A stretch of 64,000 bases of DNA from Morinoia aosen. Taxonomy: Eukaryota; Arthropoda; Malacostraca; Amphipoda; Talitridae. Under the pieces are notes generated by a model. That model ran no database searches and was not told the DNA's origin. It was given only the letters and a program-made list of their open reading frames with translations. Location: positions 44,307,842-44,371,841 of the forward strand of contig CM059569.1 in assembly GCA_030386875.1 (NCBI GenBank). Direction: 5' to 3'. Below are positions 1,411-49,296 of the stretch, in pieces (positions within the stretch are counted from its first letter, which is position 1; each line of letters starts with the position of its first letter). The translations under genes and the position numbers were made by a program.

Positions 1411-1439
1411 CAGATGTCAAGCTTTGAAATAAAAAATAT

Positions 1440-5959: not shown

Positions 5960-6425
5960 ACGCGTTATGTTCAGATTATAAAGCAAACCAAGACGGCTAC
6001 TGCCATGTTTTTGGGCCACCATAGTGCAACTTTTAATTGTGATCATATGGTTGATATGCTAAAGCACATCTCCAACTACAAACCTATTGATGATGTATAA
6101 ATGCATCTAACAAAATGCACAAACATTATCAAAAATGTATTGTATCCTCATTTCGAAAAACTGACCAATGATAATGGCAACAATAAGTTCAGTTTATTAT
6201 TGGACGAAAGTAATGATATTTAAATCATGAAACTACTTGGGGTATCAGTTATATGTATACTACAGCGATATACCTGAAAGGGGAAATCAACTTAGGAATT
6301 GCAGAATTAGTAAAATGTGATGCAGATAGAATTGTGACAGCCTTAAAACAATTGTTGATAGGTAAGTATCTGAACATTGGTAATTGCATTGCTAAAGGGA
6401 CTGACAATCGCCAGTCGCCAGATAT
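5960..6425 (+). pseudogene. Decayed hAT-type transposase fragment inside a Harbinger-ended element
   Basis: The conceptual plus-strand reading gives MFLGHHSATFNCDH near 6,005, then LHRTKC-like and NVLYPHFEK segments, FSLLLDESNDI near 6,195, and CIAKGTDN near 6,390. These match the order of motifs in hAT-superfamily (ZBED-type) transposases, where LLDES.DIS precedes the G.GTDNA block. Stops interrupt it after IDDV and after ESNDI. It ends at about 6,412, where sequence encoding the Harbinger fragment of the opposite strand begins. The same fragment is present, reversed, near 24,700-25,140. It is non-functional. Confidence 0.72.
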
Positions 6426-6810
6426 CTCAGCGTGAGCGACAGCCGTTGGCTTGGTGATATCGGTTCTCGCATGTTTGTTGATTCTTTCTGTATATATGGA
6501 GTGAAGAGATGGAAAAGTTGATCAAATGATGTAGTGCCCATTCGAAGATAGTTCTTGAAACCTTCTGGCTCATTTGAACGTAGTTCTTTCAGCAAAGCGT
6601 CGATTCCGAATATTCTGCCACGTTCCCTGAGCCCCAGTATTTGGCCCATGTCTTGCGTTTACGCGGGGATTTTCTTGAAGTTGAAATTGCTAACGGGAGC
6701 GCTAGAATGGTAATTACTTCGTCGTTTATCACGTACGGCATCCGCAGAGCAAATGACTGGTTTTCATCAATTACATTGATGCAAAGATTGACGCCGCAAG
6801 TGGGCAACAA
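6392..6810 (-). pseudogene. Broken PIF/Harbinger transposase N-terminal fragment, copy A
   Basis: Two overlapping minus-strand pieces in different frames form one N-terminal region: SPRKRKTWAKYW (6,589-6,810) and then ALLKELRSNEPEGFKNYLRM, YIQKESTNMREPISPSQRL and TLRYLATGDCQSL (6,392-6,649). This arrangement, including the L(A/T)LR.LATGD block, is characteristic of HARBI1/PIF-type nuclease proteins. A frameshift separates the pieces and the DDE catalytic region is missing, so the protein is dead. It shares its 3' junction with the captured hAT fragment on the other strand. Confidence 0.8.
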
Positions 6811-14400: not shown

Positions 14401-17400
14401 TTCTCCTAAGGTGCGTGAAAACTATAATTGCACGATAATATTTTAACTTCTAACCTATAGTCTATTTCAAATGAAGGTAGTGAGGTAATTGAAATACTGT
14501 TTATATATACCGGTACGTAAATGAGCAATATACCTTGTGGAACACAAATGCAACAAACGCCGTTAATGTGTTAATGTATAAATGCTGGCAAAGTCAAGGG
14601 AGTGGTGACTACCTCCATCAAGTCTAGAACAGCAAAATTCTCAAGTGAAATTAGAAAAAGATCCAAAAACTAACGAGCAAGCTAATATGAGAGTTTGAAA
14701 CCTATATTTTTTTTAAAACCCTATTTGCAAAGCTCCAAATGAGCGAGACAAAACCTTCGCATTTTGCAATCATTGTTCATTTTTACCAACAAGCTGCAGT
14801 CAAACAGCGTTCAAAGCTTCGAATTTATTTATTGCTTCATTGCTTCAAGATTTTAGCTCACGTCGACAAATCAGGCGACGTTTCCCTAATTCATTCAAGT
14901 GGGCATTTTTTAGCTCTATAATTAATAAGATTTGCTTTTTATGCGGTTGCTTGTTTTTCTGTTTTATCGTTTTAATCCTAACGATAGAACCTTGAAGTGT
15001 TATTGGGAAAAACTTTGTGGCAGGAGTATGCACGTGTCAGTAACACTCCTGAATGACAGTAATACTCCTGTGTGGCGTCTGTGTGGCAGGACCTGGAAGA
15101 GTTTGCGTCAGGCAGCGGTGACGCTGGCGTCATTTACTTCAGCATCGGCAGCATGGCGCTCAGTGAGGACATCCCAGCTCACGCAAAGGTAATGGCCGTT
15201 TTAAGGTAAGGAAATAGCCGTTTTAAGGTAAGGCAATGGCCATTTAAGGTGAGGTAATATGCCATTTTTTCGGTGGCCATCGAGAGGTGCTAGCAGCTGA
15301 AGGGCAGATAATTTGAAGCGCACTGCGGACTTTCACATCATTGGAAATGAAGGAGCCTCGGTGTAGGAACATACCTGTAAAACCTTGTGCCATAGAAATA
15401 TTAGTGTTGTTTATGTATATTCAAGTCCCACCGTGATAACAGTCACGGTTTTCTATGTTTTCTTTAAGGCGTGAGGATGAGGCATTGTGTTTTGGGCAAG
15501 AAGACCCTGTTTTGTGTCCTGCTCCCCGCTGATTTTCGGTCTCACAAGTAGCTATACTCAAATGTGTCTATTGTATTAGACTTAAGTAACAATCTATTGC
15601 TGTATCGCGTGTGGTAAATAAATAGTTCAACACGTTGACTGCGGTGGGTTAAACTGAAGTTTAACTTTCAACTCAAATTCATGGTCAATTGTTATTAGCG
15701 ATTTTATAAATGTCAAACATGAACTAGGTCCGTTAAATACGATTGATTTTAAAAAATTGCTGACAAATTTTCAAATTACCCATCAATGGGTCGCATCGCA
15801 GCAGGAAGAAATTAAGCACGATCCATCGATGGGTCTTTTCGAAAGTAACATGTTAAAAATATTTTTTCGTGGTCAGAAGTCCTTTGTGGAGGCGTTCGCG
15901 CGTCTGCCCCAGAGGGTGATCTGGAAGTACGAGGGAGACGACCTGGTCTTGCCTCCCAACGTCATCACGAGGAAGTGGCTCCCCCAGCAGGATTTGTTAG
16001 GTCAGCCTGGGTCTTCTGCTTGCAGCAGTGAGCTTAGTTTTGGGGTAGATGGTTCCTGGCCTGGGTCATCTGCTTACAGCAGTGAGCTAAGCTTTGGGGT
16101 AGATGGTTCCTAGCCTGGGTCTTCTGCTTACAGCAGTGAGCTTAGCTTTGGGGTAGATGGTTCCTGGCTTGGGTCTTTTTCGTATGTGTGTTGGCGCGAA
16201 ATGAGAAAGAGGTAGGCCTTCTTTTCGTTGAAATAAATTTTCATTTTATTACGTTAAGTACAGTTTTTTCGGTTCAATGCTATCCTTTTTTTCAGCACCA
16301 AATACTTTCTTCTTCAAATTTTATTTTGTTTCTTAAACTTCTTCCTCAACTTAACTGTTCCTATGCCCCTTCTGCATAAATTCTGCATTCCCTTACCTCT
16401 TATATTAAATGGTGCCTTCTTTCTCCCTCTCTTTGGAACGCTTTTTTTTCTAGCGGTTAGGGAGGTTAAAGCTAACGTCTAATCTAATCTGGACCTTCTT
16501 CTTACAGCAATGAGCTAAACGTTGCACTTGGGACGGATGGTTCCTGGTTCAATACCGCAAGATGGGGCGAAATATTTATTAGAGCAAGCAGCTTCTCCGG
16601 TGATTAGCAAACCAAGAAGACAGATATGAGAGGGTACAAGAATAAACTTAACATTCAATGAGCTCTATTTTTCCTTTCAATTCAGGTTCGGAACCGAAAA
16701 ACTCATTTGTCAACGAGATTTGAAACAACAATCATTGAAGATATTTAAAACGCCTTCATAACTCGTCATGGTTGCGCAGAACGAGCTAAAAATGAACGAC
16801 GTCGAACTCTCATTTTAGCAAACACTTGCTGATGTTTTTTCGCAAGCCCTGAAAGGCGTTACGCTTAGAGATGATTTTAATTAGGCTTTGCTGATGCTAG
16901 GCAAGCTCGGTAGAATCCATTCTATGTGTCAGTTAGTTGATCCAAAGGATCAGTAAAGTAGACATCGACCCATGCTCTTTCCGAATTTCCTCTCATTCGA
17001 CTCTCATTTCTCTCCTCAACATCTCTTGGCAGTTAAAGCACTCATTTGGTTACCCCAGCAGTTGGGTTATGAATGCTCCATATACATAACCACGCCATCT
17101 GATCGCAGGTGGGGTGCGCACTACGCTTTAGGCCGATGCCGCCTTTTGATGTTAGAGGAATTGGTGTTACTTGCAGATTGTCGGTGAGCCTCGTATAGTT
17201 GTTATTTTAACATAGATTCTTACGCAATTTGAGCCTACATTAATTAACCTACGTGCCCAATATTACCCTATGGTTGCTGGTTCATTTCACATCAAGGATC
17301 CTTGGTCTCCAATTCGCATCTCCCCGTCTGACAAGCCACCCGCAAAAAAAAAATTAAATGGAAAAAACATTAACTCCCTTCTTGACAGGCCACCCCAAAA

Positions 17401-22710: not shown

Positions 22711-23540
22711 ATTTGTCATTTTCACTGAAAATTACAGCGTCTATTCCATGCAGTTCGTACCTTAGCTGACCGAGCTTCTCATCTTTACATTCAATGTTGA
22801 GTTTTTACATTCGCTTATTTTCAATGACAGGTTCCCTCGCCTTATTGAGCTCGATGCTTTGTATTCCACGTTCGTATGCCTGACATAAAGAATTTGCGTT
22901 CAATAAGAGTGAACTTCACATCATTTTCAGCGCTGAAGTAGGTTTCAACTTCACAGAGTTTAATACGAACTTCAATTGCATTAAAAATATTAGAAGTTTG
23001 GTTTTTAATGTTTTTTAATGCAAATTTTTAATATTTCTAATATAATAAAAAACTAATGTTTTTTTATTTTTATTGCAATGTATAAGGTGTTCTTATTCCA
23101 AAGAAAATTGAAACTTATAAATAGCTCTTGTGTTTTGTGCAATGTTATTCGTGAATTTCAACGTTGGAGTCAGCACAAACATTCGGAATTCATGTCTGTT
23201 AGAGCAACAGCCAGAGACAAATGCGAGGAGAAGGAATAGTTACAAATACCTCACTTCGAAATTAGAGTCCCTGAATAGAATGGTAGGTGTAATAGTAAAC
23301 ATCCAAAAGTCTCCCCCGAATAATTAAAGAGTGTGATTAAATTTTCTGTAACATCAAGGTTTTCTAACAAAACAGCTCTTCTCCAAAATTCCTGCTTCAC
23401 AAACATAAACAGCGATGATCCCATGAACATACTGAGCATTCTACAGTCAAACAGATTTGTGGCAACTAACAAAGCTGAACCACGGGTCACGTCACAATTT
23501 TTTTCAGCAGTGCCATCACCAGGCAACAATCTGAGCGTAA
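22711..23540. repeat. Dispersed repeat R, copy 2, left part
   Basis: Matches 3,468-4,302. It is cut at CTGAGCGTAA by the Harbinger composite; the rest of the copy resumes at 31,581. Confidence 0.82.
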
Positions 23541-24201: not shown

Positions 24202-24720
24202 TTGTTGCCCACTTGCGGCGTCAATCTTTGCATCAATGTAATTGATGAAAACCAGTCATTTGCTCTGCGGACGCCGCACGTGATGGACGACGAAGAAATT
24301 ACCATTATATCGCTAGCCATGGCACTTTCAGCTTCAAGAAAATCGCCGCGTGAACGCAAGACATGGGTCAAAAACTGGCTAAAGGGGCCCATACACGTTC
24401 AAAAAAAGCGTCAAAATTTTGCATCAAAATATTGACATCAAAATTTTGATGCAAAATTTTGACGCTTTTGTTGAACGTGTATGGGCCCCTTTAGGGAACG
24501 TGGCTGAATATTCGGATTCGACGCATTGCTCAAAGAATTACGTGCAAATGAGCCAGAAGATCTCAAGAACTATCTTCGAATGGACACTACATCATTTGAT
24601 TTGATCAACTTTTCCATCTGGTCACTCCATGTATAGAGAAAGAATCAACAAACATGCGAGAACCGATATCACCTAGCCAACGGCTGTCGCTCACGCTGAG
24701 ATATCTGGCGACTGGCGATT
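24202..24720 (+). pseudogene. Broken PIF/Harbinger transposase fragment, copy C
   Basis: Homologous to the minus-strand fragment at 6,392-6,810: SPRERKTWVKNWL precedes an inserted MITE, then ALLKELRANEPEDLKNYLRM and STNMREPISPSQRL follow in other frames. Frameshifts and the insertion make it non-functional. Confidence 0.78.
24382..24491. mobile_element. 110-bp palindromic MITE inside the Harbinger transposase
   Basis: Near-perfect inverted repeats AAGGGGCCCATACACGTTCA and TGAACGTGTATGGGCCCCTT, with TA on both sides. The empty version is seen in copy A (minus strand near 6,625-6,635). The centre is AT-rich with repeated TCAAAATTTTG. Confidence 0.85.
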
Positions 24721-25140
24721 GTCAGTCCCTTTAGCAATGCAATTATCAATGCTCAGATACTTACTTATCAACAATTGTTTTAATGCTGTCACAATTCTAT
24801 CTTCATCACATTTTACTAATTCTGCAATTCCTAAGTTGATTTCCCTTTTCATATATATCGCTGTATTATACATATAACTGATACCCCTAGTAGTTTCATG
24901 ATTTAAATATCATTATTTTCATACAATAATAAACAGAACTTATAGTTGCCATTATCATTGGTCAGTTTTTCGAAATGAGGATACAATACATTTTTGATAA
25001 TGTTTGTGCATTTTGTTAGATGCATTTATACATCATCAATAGGTTTGTAGTTGGAGATGTGCTTTAGCATAACAACCATATGATTACAATTAAAAGTTGC
25101 ACTATGGTGGCCCAAAAACATGGCAGTAGCCGTCTTGGTC
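24700..25140 (-). pseudogene. Decayed hAT-type transposase fragment, Harbinger copy C
   Basis: The reverse-strand counterpart of 5,960-6,425, with IVTALKQLL and CIAKGTDN readable. Stops and substitutions differ from copy A, so it decayed independently after the chimeric element had formed. Confidence 0.65.
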
Positions 25141-26084: not shown

Positions 26085-29081
26085 TTAGAAATGAGACACA
26101 AGATTTCTTTTTAATACCTTGTAAGAATTACTTTCACGGATCTCCGCAGGTATTGAGTTCAAAGTTTTAGTTCCAACGAAGAGGATACTGTCTTGCGACC
26201 GGGCCTTTGAATAATAAGGAAGCATGAATTTACTTCTATTTCGGGTTAAATGGTCGTGATGACCAGTTTGCGCAGTTAATAATTGTTTTAGGCTATTGTC
26301 GCCATCATTAGTTAATGTTTTGTAAATGAAATTGCAGATGGAGATTTTATAGAGATCCGAGAGTTTAAGTATTCGTAAATTTTTGAATGAATCATTTGTG
26401 TGAGCATTATATTCTAGGTTATATTCTACCGCTCTGATGGCTCTTTTTTGTTGAGTAAAAATTATATTGGTTTTATTTTTACCAGTTCCGTGCCATGCTT
26501 CTATTCCGTATTGCAAGTATGGTGAAATGAGCGTTCGGTAGAGCATTTGCAAAGCTGTTTCAGGCAGGAAATTTTTAACTTTATTCAGGATTCCGATGGA
26601 TTTTGATAATTTAGAACTAATATGGGCGATGTGCTCTTTGAAGAACAGATGTTTATCTATTATGATGCCCAGAAACTTGCATGAGTTGGTTTCTTCGATT
26701 TCACCTTCGCCAATTTTATTGCGTGGGAGAGATATATTTTTCTTGTATGAGAATGTAATATAATTTGTTTTATCGATATTAAGGCTTATTTTATTAGTTT
26801 TAAGCCACAATGAAACCTTATGGAGTTCATTATTTATACTCTCCGCAATCGTAGTGGGATTTTGGTTCGGAAGGACCGTAGAAAGCATACTGTCAGCAAC
26901 AAAAAGTATGAATTTGAAGAATGATGTAGATTTAATAATATCATTGATAAAAATCAGAAATAGGAGAGGCCCAAGAACAGATCCTTGTGGAATTCCATGG
27001 CTAATTGTCTGTGAGTCCGATTTTGCGTCGTCAATGACATCGTATTGCTTCCGATTTGTTAGGTATGATCTGAACCAATCCTGGGCAACCCCACGAATGC
27101 CATAACAGTGTAGTTTCGAGAGTAATATGTTGTGGTCCACACAATCGAATGCTTTTCGAAAGTCAAGAAATACAGAGAAGACAGACTTTCCGTTATCCAT
27201 ATTAGAATAAAGGAATTGTAAATGATTTAATATTGCCTGTGTTGTTGATTTCTTACAGCGAAAGCCGTATTGTTTTTCATAGAGAAATGATTTATGTTCA
27301 AAATAAGAGTACACTTTTTTATACACAATTTTCTCGAATACCTTGCTAATAATTGGTAACACGGAGATAGGTCGATAATTGTTTACACAGGTTTTTTCAC
27401 CCTTTTTAAAGATAGGGGTTACTCTAGCAACTTTGAGGGAGTTCGGGAAAGTGCCTAGTAAGAGAGACTGGTTAATAATATTGGATATCAGCAGCGGGGC
27501 TACAATGTCAGCAATAACTTCAAGTACTTTAGTCGGAAACGTTTGTAACCCACTCGATTTATTTTTCATGTTGTTTATGCACGCAATTACATCGGAGGAG
27601 TTTGTAGGCGTAAATAAAAAGGAGTTGTGTTCTCGAATATGATCCATAAATTCCAGGTGATCAGTAGGTTCACTTGGAATACCATCAGCTATAGTTTTCC
27701 CTACGTTTACGAAGAAGTTGTTGAAGAGATTAGCAATATCTTTCTTCTTATGGTATTTTACATTATCTTGAATAACATATTCAATTTTCTTTTTATCGGC
27801 GTTATCCGGTTTACAGCAAGAGTTAAGGAGGCGCCAGATCTTTTTAACGTCAGTTTTGAATTGAGTAAACTTGAGCGTAAAGTAGTTCTTTTTTGATGTT
27901 CTTCTCTGGTTTGTTACATAGTTTCTCAATCGGTTATATGTTTCTCTAGATATTCGCCCTTCGCAAAGGAGGGCTAGGTACGCTTGACGTTTCTTTATAC
28001 TTATCACGATGTCTCTTGTAATCCAGGGCTTTTGTTTATTTTTCGGGGTAACTGTACGAGTCACAATTGGGCAACACTGATTGTATGCGGTCGTTATAGT
28101 TTCAGTCAACTTTACTACTGCATCATCAATGCTCGTCGCATTGTTGTTTTGTTGAGAGATGTGCAATGTCGGCATTGATTCTTCTAGAACGGTGCGCATT
28201 TCTTCTAGATTTGATTCGTTTATTATACGATATGTGTAAGTTTCAGCCCGTGCCTTGGTGCAAGCAATATAGACATTTTTCTTGATAAGAAAAACTGAAA
28301 AGTGATCTGATACGTCAGAAGTAATTATTCCAGCAAGAAAATCACTTTGGTCTGTCATAAAGATATTGTCAAGCAGCGTAGCACACTCAGAGGTTATTCG
28401 TGTTGGCTTTGTGATGATCGGAAGGAAAGATTTAGAATGAAATGCATTTAGGAAATTAGAGATTGGTTCATAGCTTTCATGTTTCAGTAAATCATAATTG
28501 AAGTCACCGCATATTATTATGTCATTGTAGAAGGACCTGTTGAACTGAGAAATAATACGATTAAGTTCATTAATGAAGGATATAGGACAGGCTGTAGGAG
28601 GCCTATACACCGTTCCAAGCACAATTCGTTTGCCATCTCTAGACAGTTCTAGGAATAGTGATTCTATATGATCCTGATTCATTGTGGCACTTGCGATGAT
28701 TCTCGAATCTATGTGCTTAGATATGTATGTACTGATGCCCCCGCATCGCTTGTTATTTCTTAGCGAATGGAAACTATGATAATTTTCAAATTCAATCATG
28801 TCTTTGGTCGAGTCATCTAGCCAGCTTTCGGTGAAGCTAATCACGTCTAGGTTATACTTAAGTTCAGGAATAGTACATTGTATCTCTTCCAATTTTGGAT
28901 AGAGTGACCTACAGTTCCAACACAGCAGCGAAAAATCCTGCCGAGTTATTCGTATAGTTTCCTTAAATTTTGATATATTAGTATGTCTGCAGTTTTCAGA
29001 GTCATTTAGGTTTGGAAATATTCTGTTCAAATGATTGAGATCTGGGTCAATTCCATCTAATATATCAGCGTGATCAGTCAT
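26085..29081 (-). CDS. LINE ORF2: endonuclease-reverse transcriptase (998 aa), catalytic motif altered
   Basis: One uninterrupted reading frame. An APE-type endonuclease lies at residues about 50-270 (LCWNCRSL, FTESWL, GTVYRPP, CGDFNYDLL, SDVSDHF). The reverse transcriptase spans about 500-745 (TPIFKKGEKTCVNNYRPISV, FLDFRKAFDCVDH, GIPQGSVLGPLLF), and a C-terminal region resembles CR1/jockey-group elements (HDHLTRNRSKF, GTKTLNSIPAEIR). The expected F-A-D-D active site reads F-V-A-D at residues 727-730 (codons at 26,892-26,900), losing one of the paired catalytic aspartates. With ORF1 also broken, this copy is probably dead despite its long frame. Confidence 0.93.
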   Translation of the reverse strand: MTDHADILDGIDPDLNHLNRIFPNLNDSENCRHTNISKFKETIRITRQDFSLLCWNCRSLYPKLEEIQCTIPELKYNLDVISFTESWLDDSTKDMIEFENYHSFHSLRNNKRCGGISTYISKHIDSRIIASATMNQDHIESLFLELSRDGKRIVLGTVYRPPTACPISFINELNRIISQFNRSFYNDIIICGDFNYDLLKHESYEPISNFLNAFHSKSFLPIITKPTRITSECATLLDNIFMTDQSDFLAGIITSDVSDHFSVFLIKKNVYIACTKARAETYTYRIINESNLEEMRTVLEESMPTLHISQQNNNATSIDDAVVKLTETITTAYNQCCPIVTRTVTPKNKQKPWITRDIVISIKKRQAYLALLCEGRISRETYNRLRNYVTNQRRTSKKNYFTLKFTQFKTDVKKIWRLLNSCCKPDNADKKKIEYVIQDNVKYHKKKDIANLFNNFFVNVGKTIADGIPSEPTDHLEFMDHIREHNSFLFTPTNSSDVIACINNMKNKSSGLQTFPTKVLEVIADIVAPLLISNIINQSLLLGTFPNSLKVARVTPIFKKGEKTCVNNYRPISVLPIISKVFEKIVYKKVYSYFEHKSFLYEKQYGFRCKKSTTQAILNHLQFLYSNMDNGKSVFSVFLDFRKAFDCVDHNILLSKLHCYGIRGVAQDWFRSYLTNRKQYDVIDDAKSDSQTISHGIPQGSVLGPLLFLIFINDIIKSTSFFKFILFVADSMLSTVLPNQNPTTIAESINNELHKVSLWLKTNKISLNIDKTNYITFSYKKNISLPRNKIGEGEIEETNSCKFLGIIIDKHLFFKEHIAHISSKLSKSIGILNKVKNFLPETALQMLYRTLISPYLQYGIEAWHGTGKNKTNIIFTQQKRAIRAVEYNLEYNAHTNDSFKNLRILKLSDLYKISICNFIYKTLTNDGDNSLKQLLTAQTGHHDHLTRNRSKFMLPYYSKARSQDSILFVGTKTLNSIPAEIRESNSYKVLKRNLVSHF

Positions 29082-36057: not shown

Positions 36058-39000
36058 ATGAATCCTACGACGCTAGCACGGAACATGTTGGTGCTGATTC
36101 TTTTTATCAGCGCTACGGGCGAGACAGAGTCGTATCGGATCCTACTTTCCATACCCGTGGCCAGCAAATCTCTCCACAACCTCTTCGGCGCCGTCGCCCT
36201 CAGTCTTGCCAATGCTGGCCACAACGTGACGTTTGTGTCGTGTTTCCCTGCGTCTGCCCATCACGAAAACCTGCGAAACCTCAACGCTTTAGGAAACATC
36301 TCTTTACCTTACAAAAATATTTTCGAATTTCAGGACCAGCTTAGCGTGTACAATGTGCTTCTAAGTCAGATTATCTTCGCTGGAAAGAAAATGTGGAAGA
36401 ACCCTGAAATTTTGCACATTTGGAAACACCGCAACGACTATCACGCGATCATCAGTCCGTCGTACATTAACGAGATCAACTTGCCGTTTGTTATGAACTA
36501 CACTGGGAATTTCATGTTAATTTGCACTCCTGGAATTGAATATTTTGCCATCAGTAGCTTGGGAAATTGGCTGCCACCTTCTGTGGCTCCCTACATCCTT
36601 CTCCCGTACGACGAACACATGACCTTCTTCGAGCGTCTGGTCAACGTCGTTACCCTGGCGGCATCTCGACTTATTGTGCCTAAAGTACTTTTCGACCCGC
36701 AGGAAAAGCTTTTACGCGAATTTTTCCCGGATTTCTTAGATGTTGTAAGGTGGGTTCACCTCTCAGGTAAGCATATTTCAGCTGTAACTCAATTCAATAT
36801 CAGGTGATGCTATTGAACATATTCACAAACTGTTATACCCTTTCTGAGACCCTATTCTTCCACAATTCCGTCTTTGGACTGATAGCATGCGTGCTCAAAT
36901 GATTAGCATATTTCAACCGTAATTAATTAGATGAAGCTAGTCAAAACTTTCACAAGCTAAATATCCTCTTTCTGCGACCCTCTTTCTTTCTTAGTTGAAA
37001 AATTGAACAGGAAACCTGTGTTCTCTGATGATCGCAGTTACTACAGGCCCTGAACTGAGTTAGATATGCACTCTTTTTGTTTAAATAAAGTGTTTTCTTG
37101 TTATATTAAGGACCATATTTTACGGCAATTCACTGCTGTCCCGTTTTTCAGCACCACTGACTTTCTTCTTGCACTTTTATCTTGTTTCATAACTTTCCTT
37201 GTTGACTTATTGTTTCTATGCCCACAGGATCCTTTGCGGGAACACCCTTTCTGCCAAGATTCCACGTTCTCTTTACTCTATGCTAAATGGTGCCTCCTTC
37301 CTTCCTCTCTTTGAAAATTTTTGGTTGTGTTACGGGAGGCTAAAACTAATTTATAATCCATCGCAGTTACTACGATAGGGTATCCCTTACCCTCATCAAC
37401 GGTCACCCTGCGCTGGATAATCCTACCCCTCTGCTGCCCAACCAGGTGTACATCGGCACCATCAATGCTCAACCACCGCAGCCTTTGCCGAAGGTGAGGT
37501 TGTCCTGACCGAATTTGCTTTTGTGTTCAAATTTCCAAGCCGAGCCTCGCTGGGACATGGGATAGCCAATTGGCTTAAGTTTTGTCTGAGTACCTTATCA
37601 CTGAGAAAATTTTTGTCCCAAGACCGAGACACTTTTGTTTGTCATGGGCTTATTCGACACACTCAAGTGTGTCAACTATGACACACTTGAACGTAATTAA
37701 TTTCATTCCACATAAATATATCAATTTCTAAGACTGGTCTCTGAGTACGCTAATGTGCAGACAACGCCTAAGAACGTCTGAGAATTAGAAGAAAAATTAG
37801 TTAACTCTCTCAAACCATTTTATTATGAGGTCAGAGGAAATGCTCTGCTGGGTATCAAAATATTTCGAATAACCGTTTGAGACACAAAGTTCTGTCAAAA
37901 ATTTTTCTCAGTGATAAGTAATGCATGAACTGTTGCCCTAGGGGAGATACCCTCAGGCAGGGTTGGCACATAAAAAACCCACCCAAAAAAACCCACCCAA
38001 AAAAGCCCAAAAAAACCCACACTAAAAAACCCACTAAATAGTGTTTTTTTTGGTTTTTTTAGGGTTTTATTATTGCTATGTAAATTTTATTTGTTTTCAA
38101 GCTTATAGAATAAAAATGCGCTAAATATTTATCTTGTCAAAATAAGTATCTAAGTCATGTGCATGACTATGACAAGAAAACATTGAAAAACAAAACACCA
38201 ACCCTATACAAATCAAATTAGAAAAACCTTAATCACAAAAAAAAACTTGAGAGACTAATATACTTTCATGAATTCCATTTCCAAAGTAAAAAACAAAAAT
38301 TTAGGAACAAATGCAGTTTGACTACTTAATATAGAGACTTCTGAATTTTCCCTGTCTTCTAGACTTGACTGCTACTACAATACTACTGTATTTCTTTTTT
38401 TACATCCACTGCCATTTCATCGTTGTCATTCACATCATGATCATTTGTGGGGTGGCGATATACTGAGAACAATTTCTGTGCGCGTTCTGATCCTAATCTA
38501 TTTCTCAATTTATTCCACACACAATTCCAAATGTTGAAAAAATTCTCTCAATGGATCCTGAACTTGCGGGACAAGAATGAAGATTGCTTATAAACTTGCA
38601 GAAACCCTCTGCATGTGTTTTTTTCATGAATCTGCATTTTCTGCGGTTTCATGTCTTGAATATCCCACCATCAACGAGGAGTCATTGTCTTAGTGATTTT
38701 CTCATTGAACATGTGTTTTGGGAAGATGTTGGAGTCCTTCAATTTATAGGAATAAAGCGCACCGATGAACTCCGGATTGTACTCAGCCAACCACTCTTCA
38801 ATATCAGTCTCCTGTGAGAGCTTTGCCTTAAATGTTGTAAAATGAATCCTCAATATTGAGTTCATTATCTTGTTGATCAGTCTAATGTGAAACTAGGCTA
38901 AGTGAATTAGGTTAAACATTATTGTACACCCTAGAATTATGTACTGGTAGGATGCCCTAGAAGTCGCTGAACTTATTCGGGCCCACAGGTAGCTATACTC

Positions 39001-42000
39001 AAATTTGACCATTGTATTAGACTTAAACATTCTACCTCTGTATCACCTGTGGTAAATAAATTGTTTAAATTGAAATAAGTTTAACAATTATAGTCAGATG
39101 GGGCAAGACTCGACCGCAGCCATCATGGGGTTCGAAAGTAAAGAAATGACTGGCCTATGGTGAGCATTCAAGCTGCACTGGAACAAATTTGACGATGGAA
39201 TCTGTTAGAGCATTTACTTCCAATCATTTTAGTGTTTGTTGCTATCCTGTACTGCGACAAGTGATTTTTTTGGCAAATTTAAAAAAGAAAACTTGGCATG
39301 TCACTACATGTTGTAACATGTATCAGTGTGGTTGACTGACTTGACTTGCGCTGCTAAGCCCTCCAGCTCACACAATACACATGTTAAGTTGTTAACAGCA
39401 TGACTAAGTGATGTGCAGCTGTCTTGCTTCAAGTTGCTTGTGGTGGTTACTTATGATCTGCATGGTGCTTCCCTCTCACATGACTTGCGCCTGTCTGCTG
39501 CTAAAACAACTTACTATGAATTGACGAGCATAGCAATTCTCTTTGCACATTTTATATCTTTACAGACTGCAGAGCTATGTCTCTATGCATATGGTAATTG
39601 GTAAATGGTAATTCTGATGGACAAACTTAACACATTCATTGCGGTACGACCCACCGGTGGGTCGTAGTTAGGTTTTTCTTGCTGCGAAACGACCCATCGA
39701 TGGGTCGTTTTGAAAAATTCTAACAACCTTTCTAAATTAATGGTATTTAACAGGCCCAGTTAATGTTTGATATTTACAAATTTGCTTATATCTTTTGATT
39801 TTAAATTTAAGTTGAATATTGAACTTCAGTTTAACCCATCGCAACTAACGTGTTAATTCATATATTGTTCATATAATGTAATAATTCATATAATAATGTA
39901 ATATAATGTTGGAAATAAGTAATCAAATAACAATATTTACTCAATAAGTGTGTATATATATAAATCTGAAATAGGGGCAACGGGAGTTGAGTGAATAACT
40001 CTTTTAAACAAAAACAGGTATTACAAAAAACCCAATAAAGCCCCAAAAAAAACAATAAAACCCATAAAACCCAATTTAACCCAAAAAAACCCAGGTGGGT
40101 TGGTTTTTTTTTAAAACCCAGGGTTTTTTCCATCCCTGCCCTCAGGCCGTCGGGATTTTGGTTTTTCGTGTCTATGTTGTTTCTTTCTGTATTCATGGGT
40201 TCTTCGCTAGGTCTACTGTGTTTTTTTCTCTTGTTTTTTAATTTTTCTGTTTCTATAAGCAGGAAACCTTATACTTGGATTTCCCGTTTTCTAGTACTCA
40301 ATGGTCCCTTATTTTCGCCCTTTGTAGTGTCTAGGGATTATTAACCATTTAACATCAGTATTTTTGTACTCATACTGCCGTTGTCACAACCGCCGTCATT
40401 ATAGTGGCGCTGCCATCAGGTTGTCTCCGATACCAAAGCGAGAAAGAAACTGACATTCGGCAGTGAACATTAAGCTAACATTAAAGTTAACATTATTTAA
40501 GTTAACATTAAACACATTAAGCTATAAAAAAGTATATTGGGGCTACTTTCGGAAAAGGACCGTATAGTCCTTTGGAGCGTTAAAGGGTTCAAAATGATAA
40601 AAATATTGATGCCCAGCTGGACCCCCGCGTTGGTGTAAGGTACTGGAATGAGTGCCACACTTGACCCCTCACTCAAATCATGAATATTTATCAGTCAATT
40701 GCAAGCGAGAAGCGCAAGGTTATACTATACTGTCTGTTGGTGTAAGATAAAATTAGGTCTGTAAGTATGGATTAACACGCTGAATACGCTTACATGGCTG
40801 CAACTTATAGTTGGGTCAGGTTGACAGTAGGAGAATTGGAAAATATTTATCCTGCTCGAATAAATTTTACTTCTCCTAAGGTGCGTGAAAACTATAATTG
40901 CACGATAATATTTTAACTTCTAACCTATAGTCTATTTCAAATGAAGGTAGTGAGGTAATTGAAATACTGTTTATATATACCGGTACGTAAATGAGCAATA
41001 TACCTTGTGGAACACAAATGCAACAAACGCCGTTAATGTGTTAATGTATAAATGCTGGCAAAGTCAAGGGAGTGGTGACTACCTCCATCAAGTCTAGAAC
41101 AGCAAAATTCTCAAGTGAAATTAGAAAAGCTCCGAAAACTAACGAGCAAGCTAATATGAGAGTTTAAAACCTATATTTTTTTTAAAACCCTATATGCAAA
41201 GCTCCAAATGATCATCTCCAATTTTGCAATCATTGTTCATTTTTACCAACAAGCTGCAGTCATACAGAGTTCAAAGCCTCGAATTTATTTATTGCTTCAA
41301 GGTTTTAGCTCACGTCGACAAATCAGGTGACGTTTCCCTTATTCATTCAAATGTGTATTTTTAGCTCTGTTATTTACAAGATTTGCTTTTCATGCGGTTG
41401 CTTGTTTGTTTTTCTGTTTCATCGTTTTAATCCTAACGATAAAACCTTGAAGTGTTTTTGGGAAAAACTTTGTGGCAGCAGTATGCACGTGCCAGTAACA
41501 CTCCTGAATGACAGTAATACTCCTGTGTGGCAGGACCTGGAAGAGTTTGCTTCAGGCAGCGGTGACGCAGGCGTGATTTACTTCAGTATCGGCAGCGTGG
41601 CGCTCAGTGAGGACATCCCTGCTCACGCGAAGGTAATGGCCATTTAAGGTAAGGTAATGGCCATTTAAGGTAAGGTAATAAGCCATTTTTTTCGGTGGCC
41701 ATCGTGAAGTGCTAGCAGCTGAAGGCCAGATAATTTGAAACTCAATGCGGACTTGTGTATACATCATCGGAAATGAAGGAGCCTCGGTGTAGGAACATAC
41801 CTGTAAAAATTTGTGCCATCGAAATATTAGTGTTGTTTATGTATATTAAAGTCCCATCGTGATAACAGTCACGGTTTTTCATGTTTTCTTAAAGGCGTTA
41901 TGATGAGGCATTATGTTATGGGCAGGAAGACCCTGTTTTGTGTCCTGCTCCCCGCTGATTTTCGGGCGCACAAGTAGCTATACTCAAATGTGTCTATTGT

Positions 42001-45000
42001 ACTGGATTTAAGTAATGATTTATTGCTGTATCGCGTGTGGTAAATAAATAGTTTAACACGTTGACTGCGATGGGTTAAACTGAAGTTTAATATTTGCCTC
42101 AAATTTAAAATCAAAAGTTCTTAGCAATTTTATAAATATCAAACATCAACTAGGTTCATTAAATACCATTGAGTTTTGAAAATTGCTGACTAATTTTCAA
42201 ACCACCCATCGATGGGTCGTATCGAAACCAACGTGTTGAACATTTTTTTTTCGTGGTCAGAAAGCCTTTGTGGAGGCGTTCGCGCGTCTGACCCAGAGGG
42301 TGATCTGGAAGTACGAGGGAGACGACCTGGTCTTGCCTCCCAACGTCATCACGAGGAAGTGGCTCCCCCAGCAGGATTTGTTAGGTCAGCCTGGGTCTTC
42401 TGCTTGCAGCAGTGAGCGTAGCTCTGGGGTAGATGATTCCTGGCCTGGGTCTTCTGCTTCCAGCAGTGAGCGTAGCTTTGGGGTAGGTGGTTCGTGGCCT
42501 GGGTTTTCTGCTTACAGCAGTGAGCTTAGCTTTGGGGTAGGTGGTTCCTGGCCTGGGTTTTCTGCTTACAGCAGTGAGCTTAGCTTTGGGGTAGGTGGTT
42601 CCTGGCCTGGGTTTTCTGCTTACAGCAGTGAGCTTAGCTTTGGGGTAGGTGGTTCCTGGCCTGGGTCTTCTGCTTACAGCAGTGAGCTTAGCTTTGGGGT
42701 AGGTGGTTCGTGGCCTGGGTTTTCTGCTTACAGCAGTGAGCTTAGCTTTGGGGTAGGTGGTTCCTGGCCTGGGTTTTCTGCTTACAGCAGTGAGCTTAGC
42801 TTTGGGGTAGGTGGTTCGTGGCCTGGGTTTTCTGCTTACAGCAGTGAGCTTAGCTTTGGGATAGGTGGTTCCTGGCCTGGGTTTTTTGAGCTTAGCTTTG
42901 GGGTAGGTGGTTCCTGGCCTGGGTCTTCTGCTTACAGCAGTGAGCTTAGCTTTGGGGTAGGTGGTTCCTGGCCTGGGTCTTCTGCTTACAGCAGTGAGCT
43001 TAGCTTTGGGGTAGGTGGTTCGTGGCCTGGGTTTTCTGCTTACAGCAGTGAGCTTAGCTTTGGGGTAGGTGGTTCCTGGCCTGGGTTTTCTGCTTACAGC
43101 AGTGAGCTTAGCTTTGGGGTAGGTGGTTCCTGGCCTGGGTCTTCTGCTTACAGCAGTGAGCTTAGCTTTGGGGTAGGTGGTTCGTGGCCTGGGTTTTCTG
43201 CTTACAGCAGTGAGCTTAGCTTTGGGGTAGGTGGTTCCTGGCCTGGGTTTTCTGCTTACAGCAGTGAGCTTAGCTTTGGGGTAGGTGGTTCCTGGTCTGG
43301 GTCTTCTGCTTACAGCACTGAACTAAGCTCTGGAGTAGGTGGTTCCTGGTTCAATACCGCAAGATGGGGCGATATATTTATCAAAGCAAGCAGCTGCTCC
43401 GGTGATTTAGCAGACCAAGAAGACCTAAGATTTTATCAATGACCTTAGTATGCAGTAAACTCGTTTTTTCCTTTCAATTTAGGCTAGGAACCGAAATAAT
43501 TATTTCTCAACGAGATTTAAAAATAAAGCAACCATTGAAGATATTTCAAACGCTTTTTTCATCATTCGTTATGGTTGAGCAGAACTTGCTTAGAATGAAC
43601 GTCATACTCTTATTTTAGCAAACACTTGCTGATGCTTGGCAAGCCCTGAAATGTTTTTCACATAAAAGATGATTTTAATTAAGTTTTGCTGATGCTTGGT
43701 AAGCCTGGGAGAATCCATTCTATAAGCATCAGTTAGTTGATCCAAAGTATCAGTCAAGTAGACATCGACCCATGCTCTCTCCGAATTTCCTCTCGTTCGA
43801 CCATCACTTTTCCCTCAACATGTTTCGGCAGTAGAAGCACTCGTTTGGTTATCCCAGTAGTTGGGTTATGAATATTCCATATACACACACATCACGCCAT
43901 CTGATCGCATGTGGGGTGCGCACTAACCTGTAGACCGATGCCGCCTTTTGATGTACAAGGAATTGGTGTTACGTGCAGATTGCCGGTGAGCCTCGTTAAG
44001 TTGTTATTATTACATAGATTCTTGCGCAGTTTGAGCCTACATTAATTAACCTACGTACCTTATATTATCCAGCTGTTGCCCACATTAATTAACCTACGCG
44101 TCCTATATTACCCAATTTTCGCGCGCTCATTTCACATCAAGGATCCTTGGTCTCCAATTCGCGTCTCCCCGTCTGACAAGCCACCCGAAAAAAAAAATTA
44201 TATGGAAAAAACATTAACTCCCTTCTTGACAGGCCACCCCAAAACCCCCTTCTTGACAGGCCCCCCCAAAACCCCCTTCTTGACAGGCCCTCCCAAAACC
44301 CCCATCTTGACAGGCCCTCCCAAAACCCCCATCTTGACAGGCCCTCCCAAAACCCCCTTCTTGACAGGCCCTCCCAAAACCCCCCTTCTTGACAGGCCCC
44401 TCCCAAAACCCCCTTCTTGACAGGCCCCTCCCAAAACCCCCTTCTTGACAGGCCCCTCCCAAAACCCCCTTCTTGACAGGCCCCCCCCAAAACCCCCTTC
44501 TTGACAGGCCCCCCCCAAAACCCCCTTCTTGACAGGCCCCCCCCAAAACCCCCTTCTTGACAGGCCCCCCCCCAAAACCCCCTTCTTGACAGGCCCCCCA
44601 AAACTCCCTTCTTGACAGGCCACCCCAAAACTCCCTTCTTGACAGGCCACCCCAAAACCCCCTTCTTGACAGGCCCCCCCCCCAAAACCCCCTTCTTGAC
44701 AGGCCCCCCAAAACTCCCTTCTTGACAGGCCCCCCAAAACTCCCTTCTTGACAGGCCACCCCAAAACTCCCTTCTTGACAGGCCACCCCAAAACCCCCTT
44801 CTTGACAGGCCCCCCCCCAAAACTCCCTTCTTGACAGGCCCCCCAAAACTCCCTTCTTGACAGGCCCCCCAAAACTCCCTTCTTGACAGGCCACCCCAAA
44901 ACTCCCTTCTTGACAGGCCACCCCAAAACTCCCTTCTTGACAGGCCCCCCAAAACTCCCTTCTTAACAGGCCCCCCCCTAAAACCCCCTTCTTGACAGGC

Positions 45001-48000
45001 CCCCCCAAAACTCCCTTCTTGACAGGCCCCCCCCCTAAAACCCCCTTCTTAACAGGCCCCCCCCCTAAAACCCCCTTCTTGACAGGCCCCCCAAAACCCC
45101 CTTCTTGACAGGCCCCCCAAAACTCCCTTCTTGACAGGCCCCCCAAAACTCCCTTCTTGACAGGCCCCCCAAAACTCCCTTCTTAACAGGCCCCCCCAAA
45201 ACTCCCTTCTTGACAGGCCCCCAAAACTCCCTTCTTGACAGGCCCCCCCCCCAAAACCCCCTTCTTGACAGGCCCCCCCCCCAAAACCCCCTTCTTGACA
45301 GGCCCCCCCCCCAAAACCCCCTTCTTGACAGGCCCCCCCCAAAACCCCCTTCTTGACAGGCCCCCCCCAAAACCCCCTTCTTGACAGGCCCCCCCCAAAA
45401 CCCCCTTCTTGACAGGCCCCCCCCCAAAACCCCCTTCTTGACAGGCCCCCCCCCCCAAAACCCCCTTCTTGACAGGCCCCCCCCCCAAAACCCCCTTCTT
45501 GACAGGCCCCCCCCCCAAAACCCCCTTCTTGACAGGCCCCCCCCCCCAAAACCCCCTTCTTGACAGGCCCCCCCCCAAAACCCCCTTCTTGACAGGCCCC
45601 CCCCCAAAACCCCCTTCTTGACAGGCCCCCCCCCAAAACCCCCTTCTTGACAGGCCCCCCCCCAAAACCCCCTTCTTGACAGGCCCCCCCCCAAAACCCC
45701 CTTCTTGACAGGCCCCCCCCCAAAACCCCCTTCTTGACAGGCCACCCCAAAACTCCCTTCTTGACAGGCCACCCCAAAACCCCCTTCTTGACAGGCCCCC
45801 CCCCAAAACCCCCTTCTTGACAGGCCCCCCAAAACTCCCTTCTTGACAGGCCCCCCAAAACTCCCTTCTTGACAGGCCACCCCAAAACTCCCTTCTTGAC
45901 AGGCCCCCCAAAACTCCCTTCTTAACAGGCCCCCCCCCCCCAAAACCCCCTTCTTGACAGGCCCCCCAAAACTCCCTTCTTGACAGGCCCCCCCCCAAAA
46001 CCCCCTTCTTGACAGGCCACCCCAAAACTCCCTTCTTAACAGGCCCCCCAAAACCCCCTTCTTGACAGGCCCCCCCCCCCAAAACCCCCTTCTTGACAGG
46101 CCACCCCAAAACTCCCTTCTTAACAGGCCCCCCAAAACCCCCTTCTTGACAGGCCCCCCCCCCAAAACCCCCTTCTTGACAGGCCCCCCCCCCAAAACCC
46201 CCTTCTTGACAGGGCCCCCCCCCAAAACCCCCCTTCTTGACAGGCCCCCCAAAACCCCCTTCTTGACAGGCCACCCCAAAACCCCCTTCTTGACAGGCCA
46301 CCCCAAAACCCCCTTCTTGACAGGCCACCCCAAAACCCCCTTCTTGACAGGCCACCCCAAAACCCCCTTCTTGACAGGCCACCCCAAAACCCCCTTCTTG
46401 ACAGGCCACCCCAAAACCCCCTTCTTGACAGGCCACCCCAAAACCCCCTTCTTGACAGGCCACCCCAAAACCCCCTTCTTGACAGGCCACCCCAAAACCC
46501 CCTTCTTGACAGGCCACCCCAAAACCCCCTTCTTGACAGGCCACCCCAAAACCCCCTTCTTGACAGGCCACCCCAAAACCCCCTTCTTGACAGGCCACCC
46601 CAAAACCCCCTTCTTGACAGGCCACCCCAAAACCCCCTTCTTGACAGGCCACCCCAAAACCCCCTTCTTGACAGGCCACCCCAAAACCCCCTTCTTGACA
46701 GGCCACCCCAAAACCCCCTTCTTGACAGGCCACCCCAAAACCCCCTTCTTGACAGGCCACCCCAAAACCCCCTTCTTGACAGGCCACCCCAAAACCCCCT
46801 TCTTGACAGGCCACCCCAAAACCCCCTTCTTGACAGGCCACCCCAAAACCCCCTTCTTGACAGGCCACCCCAAAACCCCCTTCTTGACAGGCCACCCCAA
46901 AACCCCCTTCTTGACAGGCCACCCCAAAACCCCCTTCTTGACAGGCCACCCCAAAACCCCCTTCTTGACAGGCCACCCCAAAACCCCCTTCTTTAAAGGC
47001 CACCCCAAAACCCCCTTCTTGACAGGCCACCCCAAAACCCCCTTCTTTAAAGGCCACCCCAAAACCCCCTTCTTGACAGGCCACCCCAAAACCCCCTTCT
47101 TGACAGGCCACCCCAAAACCCCCTTCTTGACAGGCCACCCCAAAACCCCCTTCTTGACAGGCCACCCCAAAACCCCCTTCTTTAAAGGCCACCCCAAAAC
47201 CCCCTTCATGACAGGCCACCCAAGAAAGAAAAAGAAAACCCATTAACTCCCGACAGGCCACCCCAAAACCCCCTTCTTGACAGGCCACCCCAAAACCCCC
47301 TTCTTGACAGGCCACCCCAAAACCCCCTTCTTGACAGGCCACCCCAAAACCCCCTTCTTGACAGGCCACCCCAAAACCCCCTTCATGACAGGCCACCCAA
47401 GAAAGAAAAAGAAAACCCATTAACTCCCGACAGGCCACCCCAAAACCCCCTTTTTGACAGGCCACCCCAAAACCCCCTTTTTGACAGGCCACCCCAAAAC
47501 CCCCTTTTTGACAGGCCACCCCAAAACCCCCTTTTTGACAGGCCACCCCAAAACCCCCTTTTTGACAGGCCACCCCAAAACCCCCTTCTTGACAGGCCAC
47601 CCCAAAACCCCCTTCTTGACAGGCCACCCAAGAAAGAAAAAGAAAACCCATTAACTCCCGACAGGCCACCCCAAAACCCCCTTTTTGACAGGCCACCCCA
47701 AAACCCCCTTTTTGACAGGCCACCCCAAAACCCCCTTTTTGACAGGCCACCCCAAAACCCCCTTTTTGACAGGCCACCCCAAAACCCCCTTCTTGACAGG
47801 CCACCCAAGAAAGAAAAAGAAAACCCATTAACTCCCGACAGGCCACCCCAAAACGCGGCTGTTCATCTCTCACTGCGGCAACCTGGGGACGCAGGAGGCG
47901 AAGTACCACGGCGTCCCGGTGCTGGCGGTGCCCATCACCTTCGACCAGCCCAGGAACGCCGCCAGAATGGTCTACAAGGGCCTGGCGCTGTCGCTCGAGT

Positions 48001-49296
48001 GGCACTCCCTCACAGCTGATGCCATCGTCACCGCTGTCGACAGGCTCATCAACGAAACTTCGTGAGTGGCGCGCGTTCTTCTGTTGTAACCACTTACTGG
48101 CGGTGACACGTCGGTAATGATAATCGTACCTAATTATAGCCTTGGTGTGTATATTTGTTTGTTTGGTGATTTTTAAGAAACGGTTTCTGTGATTTCATTT
48201 GAACGATGCCCAATGACCGTATCTGTGATACGAGTTCCCCCAGTGCACAAGTGCAAGAATATGTTAATCGCGGGTACTATTGGGATGGATGTATATGTTT
48301 GTCATCCTCATCTTGAAGTTTATTTAAAGGAAACTATCGAATCCCGTCATTTTTGACGGGTCGTTTACACTAGTACCTAATAATAGCCTTGGTGTGTTTA
48401 TTTAATCATAGATTTGTTTGGTGTCTGCTTCTTCCTTCTCTCTGTCGCGCTCATAAGGAGGCGTAATGAAAAGAATTAATACGACCATCGGTTGTATATC
48501 ATGAAAAATTTATTAACCAGAAATTTTTATAAAATTAACATGTTGTTACGAAATTCTTTTAGAAAAGGGTCCAAATCTGCAAGTTGGATTTAGAGTTGTT
48601 CCCAGGGTGAAAGAGTTTTGAGAGTAACCATAAAACCACGGTTTTCAATTCTCAAGTCATTTCTAGTGAGAAGTCCGAGGATTTTATTTATTTCAGAAAT
48701 TTTTATCAAAAACATAAGAGCGTCTGTGATACGAGTTTCACCAGTGCACATGTACTCCTGGGTATATCTCGGGTACTCCTGGGATGGATATATTTGTTTG
48801 TTATCCACACCTGGAAAATTTATTCAAGGAAAATATTGAACCCCGTCATTCTTGAAGGGCAGTGCACTCGAACTTGTCTAGGGTTAAGTTGAACTTGACT
48901 CTGATTAATTTAAACTGAAAAGGTGTAGTTATACTATAAAAGCCATTTTTTTACTTCTGCTAAATAATTTTTGCCTGTGGCAGGTTCTCGGAGAAGATGC
49001 GCAAAGTATCTTCCATCCTGAAGGACCAAATGGATCCGCCGTCAGCGAGGGCCGTGTGGTGGGTGGAGCACATCATACGGCAAGGAGGGGCGCCGTACCT
49101 GCAGTACCCTGGCAAGCACCTGCACTTCTTGCAGTACACCTGTGTTGATGTGCTCGTCTTCATCTTCGTCAGCCTCTACGTCTGTTCCAAGCTGGCGTGC
49201 GTCGTCTGTTCCAGGTTACTGCGCTCCGTCTGCTGCAAGCGTAAGTCTCGGCCGCAGCATGGGACTTCCAAGAAGATTAAAGAGAAGCAAAAATAA
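36058..49296 (+). CDS. UDP-glycosyltransferase, gene 2 (six coding exons, 524 aa)
   Basis: Exons join 36,058-36,749, 37,367-37,493, 41,534-41,632, 42,261-42,384, 47,842-48,061 and 48,984-49,296, each exactly as long as in gene 1, with matching phases. All functional parts listed for gene 1 are present. I count eight residue changes: P23T, Y-to-F in VLFDP, F-to-V before the first junction, M-to-V in GSVALS, S-to-A and P-to-T in exon 4, C-to-F in the membrane anchor, and R-to-K in the tail. The gene is much longer than gene 1 (13.2 versus 7.8 kb) because intron 2 received a hAT element and introns 4 and 5 have expanded minisatellites. Whether intron 4 (over 5.4 kb, largely repeats) is spliced efficiently is unknown. 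Confidence 0.92.
37045..37359 (+). mobile_element. Old ~350-bp-family retroposon at the intron 1/exon 2 junction, UGT gene 2
   Basis: A 315-bp insertion between two copies of ATCGCAGTTACTAC (37,031-37,044 and 37,360-37,373). The second copy spans the exon-2 acceptor. It is the uninterrupted version of the insertion split in gene 1. Confidence 0.85.
37593..37918. mobile_element. MITE in intron 2 of UGT gene 2
   Basis: Same element as 13,317-13,639, ends CTTATCACTGAG / CTCAGTGATAAG. Confidence 0.65.
38400..38870 (-). pseudogene. hAT transposase C-terminal (dimerisation) remnant
   Basis: The minus strand reads CPASSGSIERIFSTFG and, after a frameshift, NKLRNRLGSERAQKLFSVY, which is the hAT C-terminal dimerisation motif. 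The upstream piece (38,671-38,865) has no clear motif. The catalytic domain is not seen, so the element is non-autonomous. Confidence 0.8.
39631..39852. mobile_element. TTAA MITE nested in the hAT element
   Basis: TTAA on both sides (39,627-39,630; 39,853-39,856). Termini CACATTCATTGCGG and CGCAACTAACGTG, with inner palindromes CCCACCGGTGGG and CCCATCGATGGG. Same family as 15,631 and 42,057. Confidence 0.8.
41630..41692 (+). repeat. ~20-bp tandem repeat on the exon-3 donor, UGT gene 2
   Basis: Three units of GGTAATGGCCATTTAA beginning at the real donor GCGAAG|GTAATGG, the later ones offering AAG|GTAAGG. Confidence 0.8.
42057..42235. mobile_element. TTAA-type MITE, intron 3 of UGT gene 2
   Basis: Counterpart of 15,631-15,852, flanked by TTAA and TTGA; ends CACGTTGACTGCGATGGG and CCAACGTG. 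Confidence 0.68.
42385..43340 (+). repeat. 54-bp minisatellite at the exon-4 donor, UGT gene 2 (18 units)
   Basis: Begins at the donor base (TTAG|GTCAGCC) and runs 18 units; one unit near 42,880 has lost 12 bp, keeping the frame. The unit is in frame with exon 4 and has no stop, so unspliced reading would add 18-residue repeats (SWPGFSAYSSELSFGVGG). Units repeat TTCTGCTTACAGCAG and GGGGTAGGTGG, resembling an acceptor and a donor. Confidence 0.95.
43350..44217 (+). other. Intron 4 remainder of UGT gene 2
   Basis: Homologous to 16,546-17,377. CATTAATTAACCTACG is locally duplicated near 44,037 and 44,082. No exon is supported. Confidence 0.4.
44218..47841 (+). repeat. 27-bp minisatellite at the exon-5 acceptor, UGT gene 2 (about 130 units)
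   Basis: 3.6 kb of the unit GACAGGCCACCCCAAAAC + CCCCTTCTT. From 44,218 to about 46,240 units vary in the length of the C tract (24-33 bp), scrambling the frame. From about 46,247 they are almost perfect 27-mers. Four long poly-A terminal units (starting near 47,216, 47,392, 47,622 and 47,799) divide the 3' part into higher-order blocks of about 175-231 bp. The last one abuts exon 5. Reverse-strand ORFs of up to 940 codons here are artefacts. Confidence 0.96.
48062..48983 (+). other. Intron 5 of UGT gene 2
   Basis: Diverged tandem halves as in gene 1 (TGTGATACGAGTTCCCCC near 48,223; TGTGATACGAGTTTCACC near 48,724). No exon is supported. Confidence 0.45.

Follow-up and report, generated by a model that had tools for sequence, protein, structure and literature searches.

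Why would an intron end in 130 acceptor-like AGs, and what follows for the gene that carries it? The question is raised by a 64,000-nucleotide stretch of the Morinoia aosen genome (assembly GCA_030386875.1, contig CM059569.1, positions 44,307,842 to 44,371,841 of the forward strand; hereafter the window). Its plus strand carries two tandem UDP-glycosyltransferase (UGT) genes, modelled by homology and open reading frame with six exons and 542 amino acids each. In both genes, intron 4 closes in a minisatellite made of copies of its own junction with exon 5. Intron 4 of gene 2 (42,385-47,841, 5,457 nt) ends in 130 acceptor-like AGs from 44,232 to 47,841, and that of gene 1 (16,001-17,700, 1,700 nt) ends in 12, from 17,388 to 17,700, a roughly elevenfold difference between paralogues. 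We interpret the arrays as mirage minisatellites, with a probability of about 0.72: the junction was copied in tandem in place, the array grew passively, the last acceptor is the one used, and the array likely has no function of its own. Mirages, minisatellite-like tandem duplications of an intron-exon boundary, are known from amphioxus (PMC3087553).

The repeat unit reproduces the layout of the real junction. AGs were counted by splitting the sequence at the acceptor motif, and the longest interval between neighbouring AGs is 42 bp, so the split missed none. AG spacing in gene 2 comprises 125 short intervals of 25-32 bp and four of 42 bp, and in gene 1 ten intervals of 27 bp and one of 42 bp. 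TRF calls the array at 44,216-47,806 in gene 2 and at 17,372-17,665 in gene 1; combined with the motif split, the two plus-strand features span 44,216-47,841 and 17,372-17,700. The main unit reads GCCACCCCAAAACCCCCTTCTTGACAG. It is 27 bp long and consists of a pyrimidine tract and TTGACAG, which form the intron part, followed by the first 13 bases of exon 5, GCCACCCCAAAAC, which spell the UGT codons HPKT. The last acceptor is the same in both genes, CCCGACAG/GCCACCCCAAAACG (the slash marks the splice site), and links exon 4, ending QQDLLG, to HPKTRLFISHCG (HPKTRLF) in the UGT reading frame. An initial annotation of this DNA had described about 130 junction copies before gene 2 exon 5, about 11 units in gene 1 and a unit copying the real junction, all of which agree with our counts and with the layout, although what it termed the 5' end of the intron must mean the 3' end. 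Its description of the unit as nine codons (GHPKTPFLT) in phase with exon 5 holds for all ten short units of gene 1, but for just 70 of 125 in gene 2, where C-tract lengths have changed. A 42-bp unit with an in-frame TAA is present as it had stated, closing the gene 1 array at 17,659-17,700. Gene 2, however, has four such units rather than one, identical to each other and set within larger blocks, at 47,215-47,256, 47,392-47,433, 47,623-47,664 and 47,800-47,841 (all plus strand). The fourth ends in the acceptor that we take to be the real one.

The two arrays differ in uniformity as well as length, with lengths and copy numbers coming from one assembly. Eight of the ten short units in gene 1 are identical. 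The gene 2 array has a varied 5' part of 72 units (23 types, only 18 of them 27 bp, many C-tract length changes) and a more uniform 3' part of 57 units (6 types, 52 of them 27 bp), with the border at 46,230 chosen by eye. Substitutions among the 125 short units of gene 2 amount to nine alleles over 8 of 27 positions, and none affects the AG. The chance that all nine would spare it is (25/27)^9 = 0.50, and no selection keeping splice signals was seen among these 125 units. The variation thus looks neutral, to judge from the distribution of alleles along the unit. Instability of the whole array driven by G-quadruplexes was considered and set aside: there are just four such motifs, all in the 5' half of the gene 2 array, and none in gene 1.

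A genome search points to an origin in place. With up to 2 mismatches allowed, the 27-mer was reported from at least 75 sites in the 2.0-Gb genome, all inside these two introns, and a reversed control pattern of the 27-mer from 0 sites in the same search; counts from such pattern searches are lower bounds. Chance is no issue as a source of the array, and its confinement to these introns indicates that it was born there. A dispersed repeat, satellite or transposon was rejected as the source, since neither the 27-mer nor, with up to 3 mismatches, the 54-bp core of a second minisatellite in the same introns (see below) was reported outside them. The direction of copying can be read from the wider family. 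A protein search returned 66 exon-5 matches, a few of them pieces of one exon, and the best 30 of the 66 were examined with their flanks. An acceptor AG in phase 1 was seen at 29 of these 30 loci, 25 as expected and 4 one base off owing to partial alignments; one locus (L037) has AA. Several paralogue exons start CACCCCAAAAC in the same intron phase without any junction array. Because paralogues share the HPKT codons and the intron phase but lack the array, copying went from exon to intron.

Traces of an early step appear to survive 5' of both arrays. Alignment identifies a decayed junction copy (GACAAGCCACCC) upstream of each array, at 44,175-44,186 in gene 2 and 17,330-17,341 in gene 1 (plus strand), which is homologous to the first part of the 42-bp terminal unit. 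The array therefore seems to have grown out of a first duplication with a longer spacer, as far as these alignments indicate. In the scenario we favour, the junction between intron 4 and exon 5 was duplicated in place in the ancestor of the two sister genes, and a 27-bp piece was then amplified head to tail before genes 1 and 2 split. Unequal exchange or slippage would later have carried gene 2 to 130 copies. Its 5' half, the more varied one, would also have undergone C-tract slippage, and its 3' half repeated block copying of the end unit of 42 bp. The varied 5' and blocky 3' patterns of gene 2 are the expected outcome of slippage, unequal exchange and block copying.

The consequences of choosing each acceptor were determined by joining exon 4 in silico to every array AG of both genes. 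Only the last AG of each gene gives a full-length protein. All 129 upstream acceptors of gene 2 (84 in the frame of exon 5, 45 out of frame) and all 11 of gene 1 cut the protein short, 50 nt or more ahead of the exon 5/6 junction, which bears out the earlier claim that any upstream choice yields a truncated product. Recursive (ratchet) splicing was rejected, as GT follows the acceptor in 0 of 130 cases in gene 2 and 0 of 12 in gene 1; with no AG/GT at any acceptor, a wrong splice is beyond repair by this route. Both genes are nonetheless intact, with 542-amino-acid frames, dN 0.0076 and dS 0.0286 between them (dN/dS ~0.27) and an identical exon 5, from which we infer that the last acceptor works. 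Its productive use would remove everything upstream as intron, leaving an array that is most likely functionless. The price is probably a fraction of wrongly spliced transcripts, which would stop early and be cleared by nonsense-mediated decay.

Some observations weigh against this reading, beginning with the signals around the AGs. A yTnAy motif lies 15-50 nt upstream of 123 of 130 acceptors in gene 2 and 11 of 12 in gene 1, as a motif match with no intervening AG beyond 12 nt of the motif; an AG lying 12-15 nt or less from a branch point can be read past (PMC1431707). Putative branch points, whose lack the initial annotation had held would speak against a decoy, are thus present in the array. 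The typical one is TTGAC, 30 nt away in the preceding unit. The last acceptor has no yTnAy at 15-50 nt unless AGs are skipped, while most units have theirs at 30 nt. It does have TTAAC about 10 nt away, and since yTnAy is raised at 8-12 nt, as well as at 23-27 nt, in 59 non-redundant UGT acceptors, this position does not disqualify it. The pyrimidine run averages 9.8 at the 129 upstream acceptors of gene 2 versus 5 at the last. Scoring gave a mixed picture. The matrix was built from those 59 acceptors, out of 68 UGT acceptors of the same genome that included, before redundancy removal, 8 of the window genes' own (introns 1, 2, 3 and 5). When the model covers 12 nt, 123 of the 129 gene 2 units score above the last acceptor; over 16, 20, 25 and 30 nt the number falls to 23, 3, 0 and 0, so that the ranking flips with the span of the model. 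At 20 nt, 390 of 500 bootstraps with this matrix put the last acceptor ahead of the modal unit. With C and T pooled, 2, 2 and 0 units lie above the last acceptor over 16, 20 and 25 nt. An earlier matrix from 60 UGT acceptors placed 0 of 129 units above the last acceptor. The three internal 42-bp units tie with it. As a whole, the ranking was not counted for either side. Also unfavourable is that all 129 unit-ending AGs have been kept, a pattern that selection would give as well. Wrong acceptors are thus probably chosen at times, and with 129 opportunities in each transcript this could have an effect.

These points are the core of the proposal, made in the initial annotation, that the array is a tunable decoy: 129 upstream acceptors would compete for exon 4, and their copy number would set the amount of functional UGT 2. 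We regard it as rather unlikely. The universal truncation, the motifs at a workable distance, the scores over 12 nt with the ties of the internal 42-bp units, and the impossibility of mending a wrong choice by a second splice are all as a decoy would have them, and a single decoy 3' splice site helps regulate caspase-2 (PMC2082412). Against it, no unit exceeds the last acceptor over 25-30 nt, and few or none do at 16-25 nt once C and T are pooled; the unit signals bear no trace of selection; and the amphioxus mirages are thought not to interfere with splicing (PMC3087553). The gene 2 protein, moreover, is still close to that of gene 1, and with the intact frame, the divergence values given above and residues in both genes that seem to be derived (see below), gene 2 is not visibly decaying. 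Neither a lowering of UGT 2 output by the array nor its tunability is supported.

An error of assembly that inflated copy number or C-tract lengths is quite improbable. Assembling long arrays rich in homopolymers is difficult, and a mirage of amphioxus seems to have been misassembled in the genome draft (PMC3087553), but the gene 2 array has internal order (72 units of 23 types in its 5' half, 57 units of 6 types in its 3' half), and its flanks agree with those of gene 1. A role for the array RNA, rich in C and CUUCUU, as a collector of pyrimidine-tract proteins, whether by titrating them or by raising their concentration close to the last acceptor, is very improbable. The long pyrimidine runs of the upstream acceptors in gene 2 fit this idea, as would a presumed resemblance of the RNA to the motifs bound by PTB and PCBP; a single intron in a single gene, however, makes a small sink. 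We give almost no credence to the array as alternative coding sequence, its units exonised as GHPKTPFLT repeats in a variant UGT. The gene 1 array is open in that frame (open reading frame 17,358-17,690), yet the frame that matches exon 5 stops at the TAA of the 42-bp unit, the remaining frames misread exon 5, and in gene 2, 55 of the 125 short units deviate from 27 bp.

The arrays sit in a pair of close paralogues. The exons of gene 1 (plus strand, from the gene model) are exon 1, 11,409-12,154 (coding part); exon 2, 13,086-13,212; exon 3, 15,090-15,188; exon 4, 15,877-16,000; exon 5, 17,701-17,920; and exon 6, 18,848-19,160 (coding part). Exons 5 and 6 match PF00201 at 4.4e-18 and 2.6e-11, and exon 1 by itself has no Pfam match. 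An 11-bp tandem duplication (15,067-15,089) precedes the exon 3 acceptor, at the end of intron 2, and is absent from gene 2. The corresponding exons of gene 2 (plus strand) are exon 1, 36,058-36,803 (coding part, from homology and open frame); exon 2, 37,367-37,493; exon 3, 41,534-41,632; exon 4, 42,261-42,384, which ends GATTTGTTAG/GTCAGC; exon 5, 47,842-48,061, whose PF00201 match was made on the identical exon of gene 1; and exon 6, 48,984-49,296 (coding part). The gene 2 protein matches PF00201 at 2.4e-72 over residues 171-521.

The coding parts differ at 20 of 1,629 bases (8, 0, 7, 3, 0 and 2 in exons 1 to 6), and larger aligned blocks, exons included, are 83-98% identical. Exon 5 (0/220) and exon 2 (0/127) show no differences, and exon 3 differs at 7 of 99 bases. 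Local gene conversion is possible for exons 2 (13,086-13,212 / 37,367-37,493) and 5 (17,701-17,920 / 47,842-48,061), judging from this distribution. The proteins differ at nine amino acids. A comparison with a few paralogue sequences, used to polarise these changes, points to derived states at residues 335 and 524 of gene 2 and at 313 and 326 of gene 1. The notion that gene 2 is a decaying copy was not supported, given its intact 542-residue frame, the dN/dS ratio and apparently derived residues in both genes.

Other repeats and mobile sequence are present in the window. The donor side of intron 4 holds the second minisatellite of each gene, a 54-bp repeat of intronic sequence only that begins 5 nt past exon 4 in gene 2 (42,389-43,349, 18 copies, plus strand) and lies at 16,005-16,177 in gene 1 (3.2 copies, plus strand). 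With up to 3 mismatches, its core was reported from at least 19 sites in the 2.0-Gb genome, in both introns only. Like the acceptor array, it is larger in gene 2. The gene 2 copies are open in the frame of exon 4 (open reading frame 42,240-43,442, 400 amino acids), and those of gene 1 hit a TAG within the array. A 20-bp minisatellite of 101 copies, 98% uniform, occupies 1,435-3,456; its minus-strand open frames of up to 743 amino acids look like mere repeat translations. On the minus strand between the two UGT genes, a 998-amino-acid open frame (26,085-29,081) with reverse transcriptase (PF00078) and weak endonuclease matches identifies, by these domains, a LINE-type element. Very similar open frames occur at 3,883-4,089 and 23,121-23,327, and in opposite orientation at 6,217-6,435 (plus) and 24,691-24,909 (minus); these pairs are probably dispersed mobile elements.

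Copying of splice junctions is not confined to intron 4 of these genes. Including the two window genes, 7 of the 30 UGT exon-5 loci examined (the best 30 of 66 matches, some of them close duplicates) contain junction copies; the copy numbers that follow include the real copy. One locus has three copies of the end of exon 5 with a GTGAGC donor (L062:1657-1883), another five copies of an exon end with its donor (L043:971-1524), and a third two donor copies (L040:1359-1526). At two more (L060 and L061), a second acceptor lies 182 and 188 bp upstream, accompanied by about 37 nt that align with exon 5 at ~81% identity. Separately, a 103-bp repeat of 2.3 copies overlaps the predicted end of exon 4 of one UGT gene (L043:2183-2422). 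Both window genes open intron 3 within a repeat that includes three exon bases and the donor, according to TRF and alignment: 21 bp, 2.8 copies, starting from the last 3 nt of exon 3 (AAG/GTAATGGCC) in gene 2 (41,630-41,688, plus strand), and 22 bp, 3.8 copies, in gene 1 (15,186-15,268, plus strand).

A second gene family was sampled through 10 P450 exons with 300-base flanks, taken from 90 P450 matches. Junction copies are present at one of the ten, where an exon end with its donor, CCTAAG/GTAC, occurs seven times (seven AGGTAC copies) in a 30-bp array (L070, 479-749). By its sequence this is a donor mirage in another gene family. It came to light in the tandem-repeat calls and on reading the sequence; automated screening of the flanks of all ten exons for exon copies gave 0 of 10 and so missed it. 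Repeats near exon edges at two other loci (L068 and L069) do not look like junction copies. Tandem repeats show no enrichment at exon edges in a set of 131 such edges, which came from the window, the C22 cluster (110 kb) and 16 of the loci L040-L063, with C22 loci and close duplicates excluded from the latter. Their coverage is flat with distance at ~8%, being 0.059 in the first 25 nt and 0.060-0.105 farther out, so junctions need not be singled out. Most simply, the genome is prone to tandem duplication, and junctions are affected no differently from other sites.

The UGT array is a further, unusually large, case of the known mirage kind: its tandem units hold intron and exon sequence of one real junction, and it originated in place rather than from a dispersed repeat. 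Mirages in amphioxus occur at either boundary, are unstable in length and are thought not to disturb regular splicing (PMC3087553). As in Adh3 and the globin genes BflGb6 and BflGb9 of amphioxus, the UGT unit spans the boundary and many units carry splice signals. Unlike those cases, the host is an arthropod, as 93 cuticle-protein domain matches also show (a search for insect odorant receptors found none, but its controls came up empty as well), there are 130 acceptors, and the 27-bp main unit has only 13 exon bases; BflGb6 has six and three units of 150-160 bp in two haplotypes, and Adh3 has units of 10-72 bp (PMC3087553). Length instability and regular splicing are reported for amphioxus (PMC3087553). 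The UGT arrays are known from the sequence of one assembly, in which the 12 versus 130 acceptors of the paralogues bear on instability only indirectly and the intact frames would fit regular splicing. A literature search, in the excerpts it covered, found no arthropod mirage, which is weak evidence of absence.

Other systems share particular features. The decoy 3' splice site In100 of caspase-2 is likewise an intronic acceptor look-alike with a pyrimidine tract and AG, and its branch site has a putative counterpart in the UGT units, but it is one element with a PTB-binding domain, and experiments show that it suppresses the 5' splice site of an exon (PMC2082412); the UGT arrays have many copies and are known from sequence alone. 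In human duplicated genes, variable internal tandem repeats likewise reflect minisatellites that have expanded, some of them at exon-intron boundaries, and to different extents in recent paralogues (PMC2812944), whereas the UGT array sits in an existing intron and cannot yield a working product. U2AF65 of C. elegans clusters several 3' splice-site consensus copies in one transcript, as here, but they lie in an alternative exon of a splicing-factor gene (PMC2082412). In Drosophila, introns have been gained where coding sequence was duplicated in tandem, a related but different event (PMC2891723).

The two UGT genes form a natural sister pair, with an identical exon 5 and a roughly elevenfold difference in acceptor copies, whose RNA would test the cost of near-perfect upstream acceptors and bear on how the spliceosome selects one among many near-identical sites. 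The finding extends mirage minisatellites from lancelets to an arthropod, in which junction copies recur at several UGT junctions and one P450 junction. We think it unlikely that junction copying is genome-wide and that the 130-fold ladder of acceptors sets, by its length, the share of UGT 2 transcripts spliced productively. If it did, the output of a detoxification gene would drift or evolve with a hypervariable minisatellite. Junction copying may be a common early step in the change of exon boundaries.

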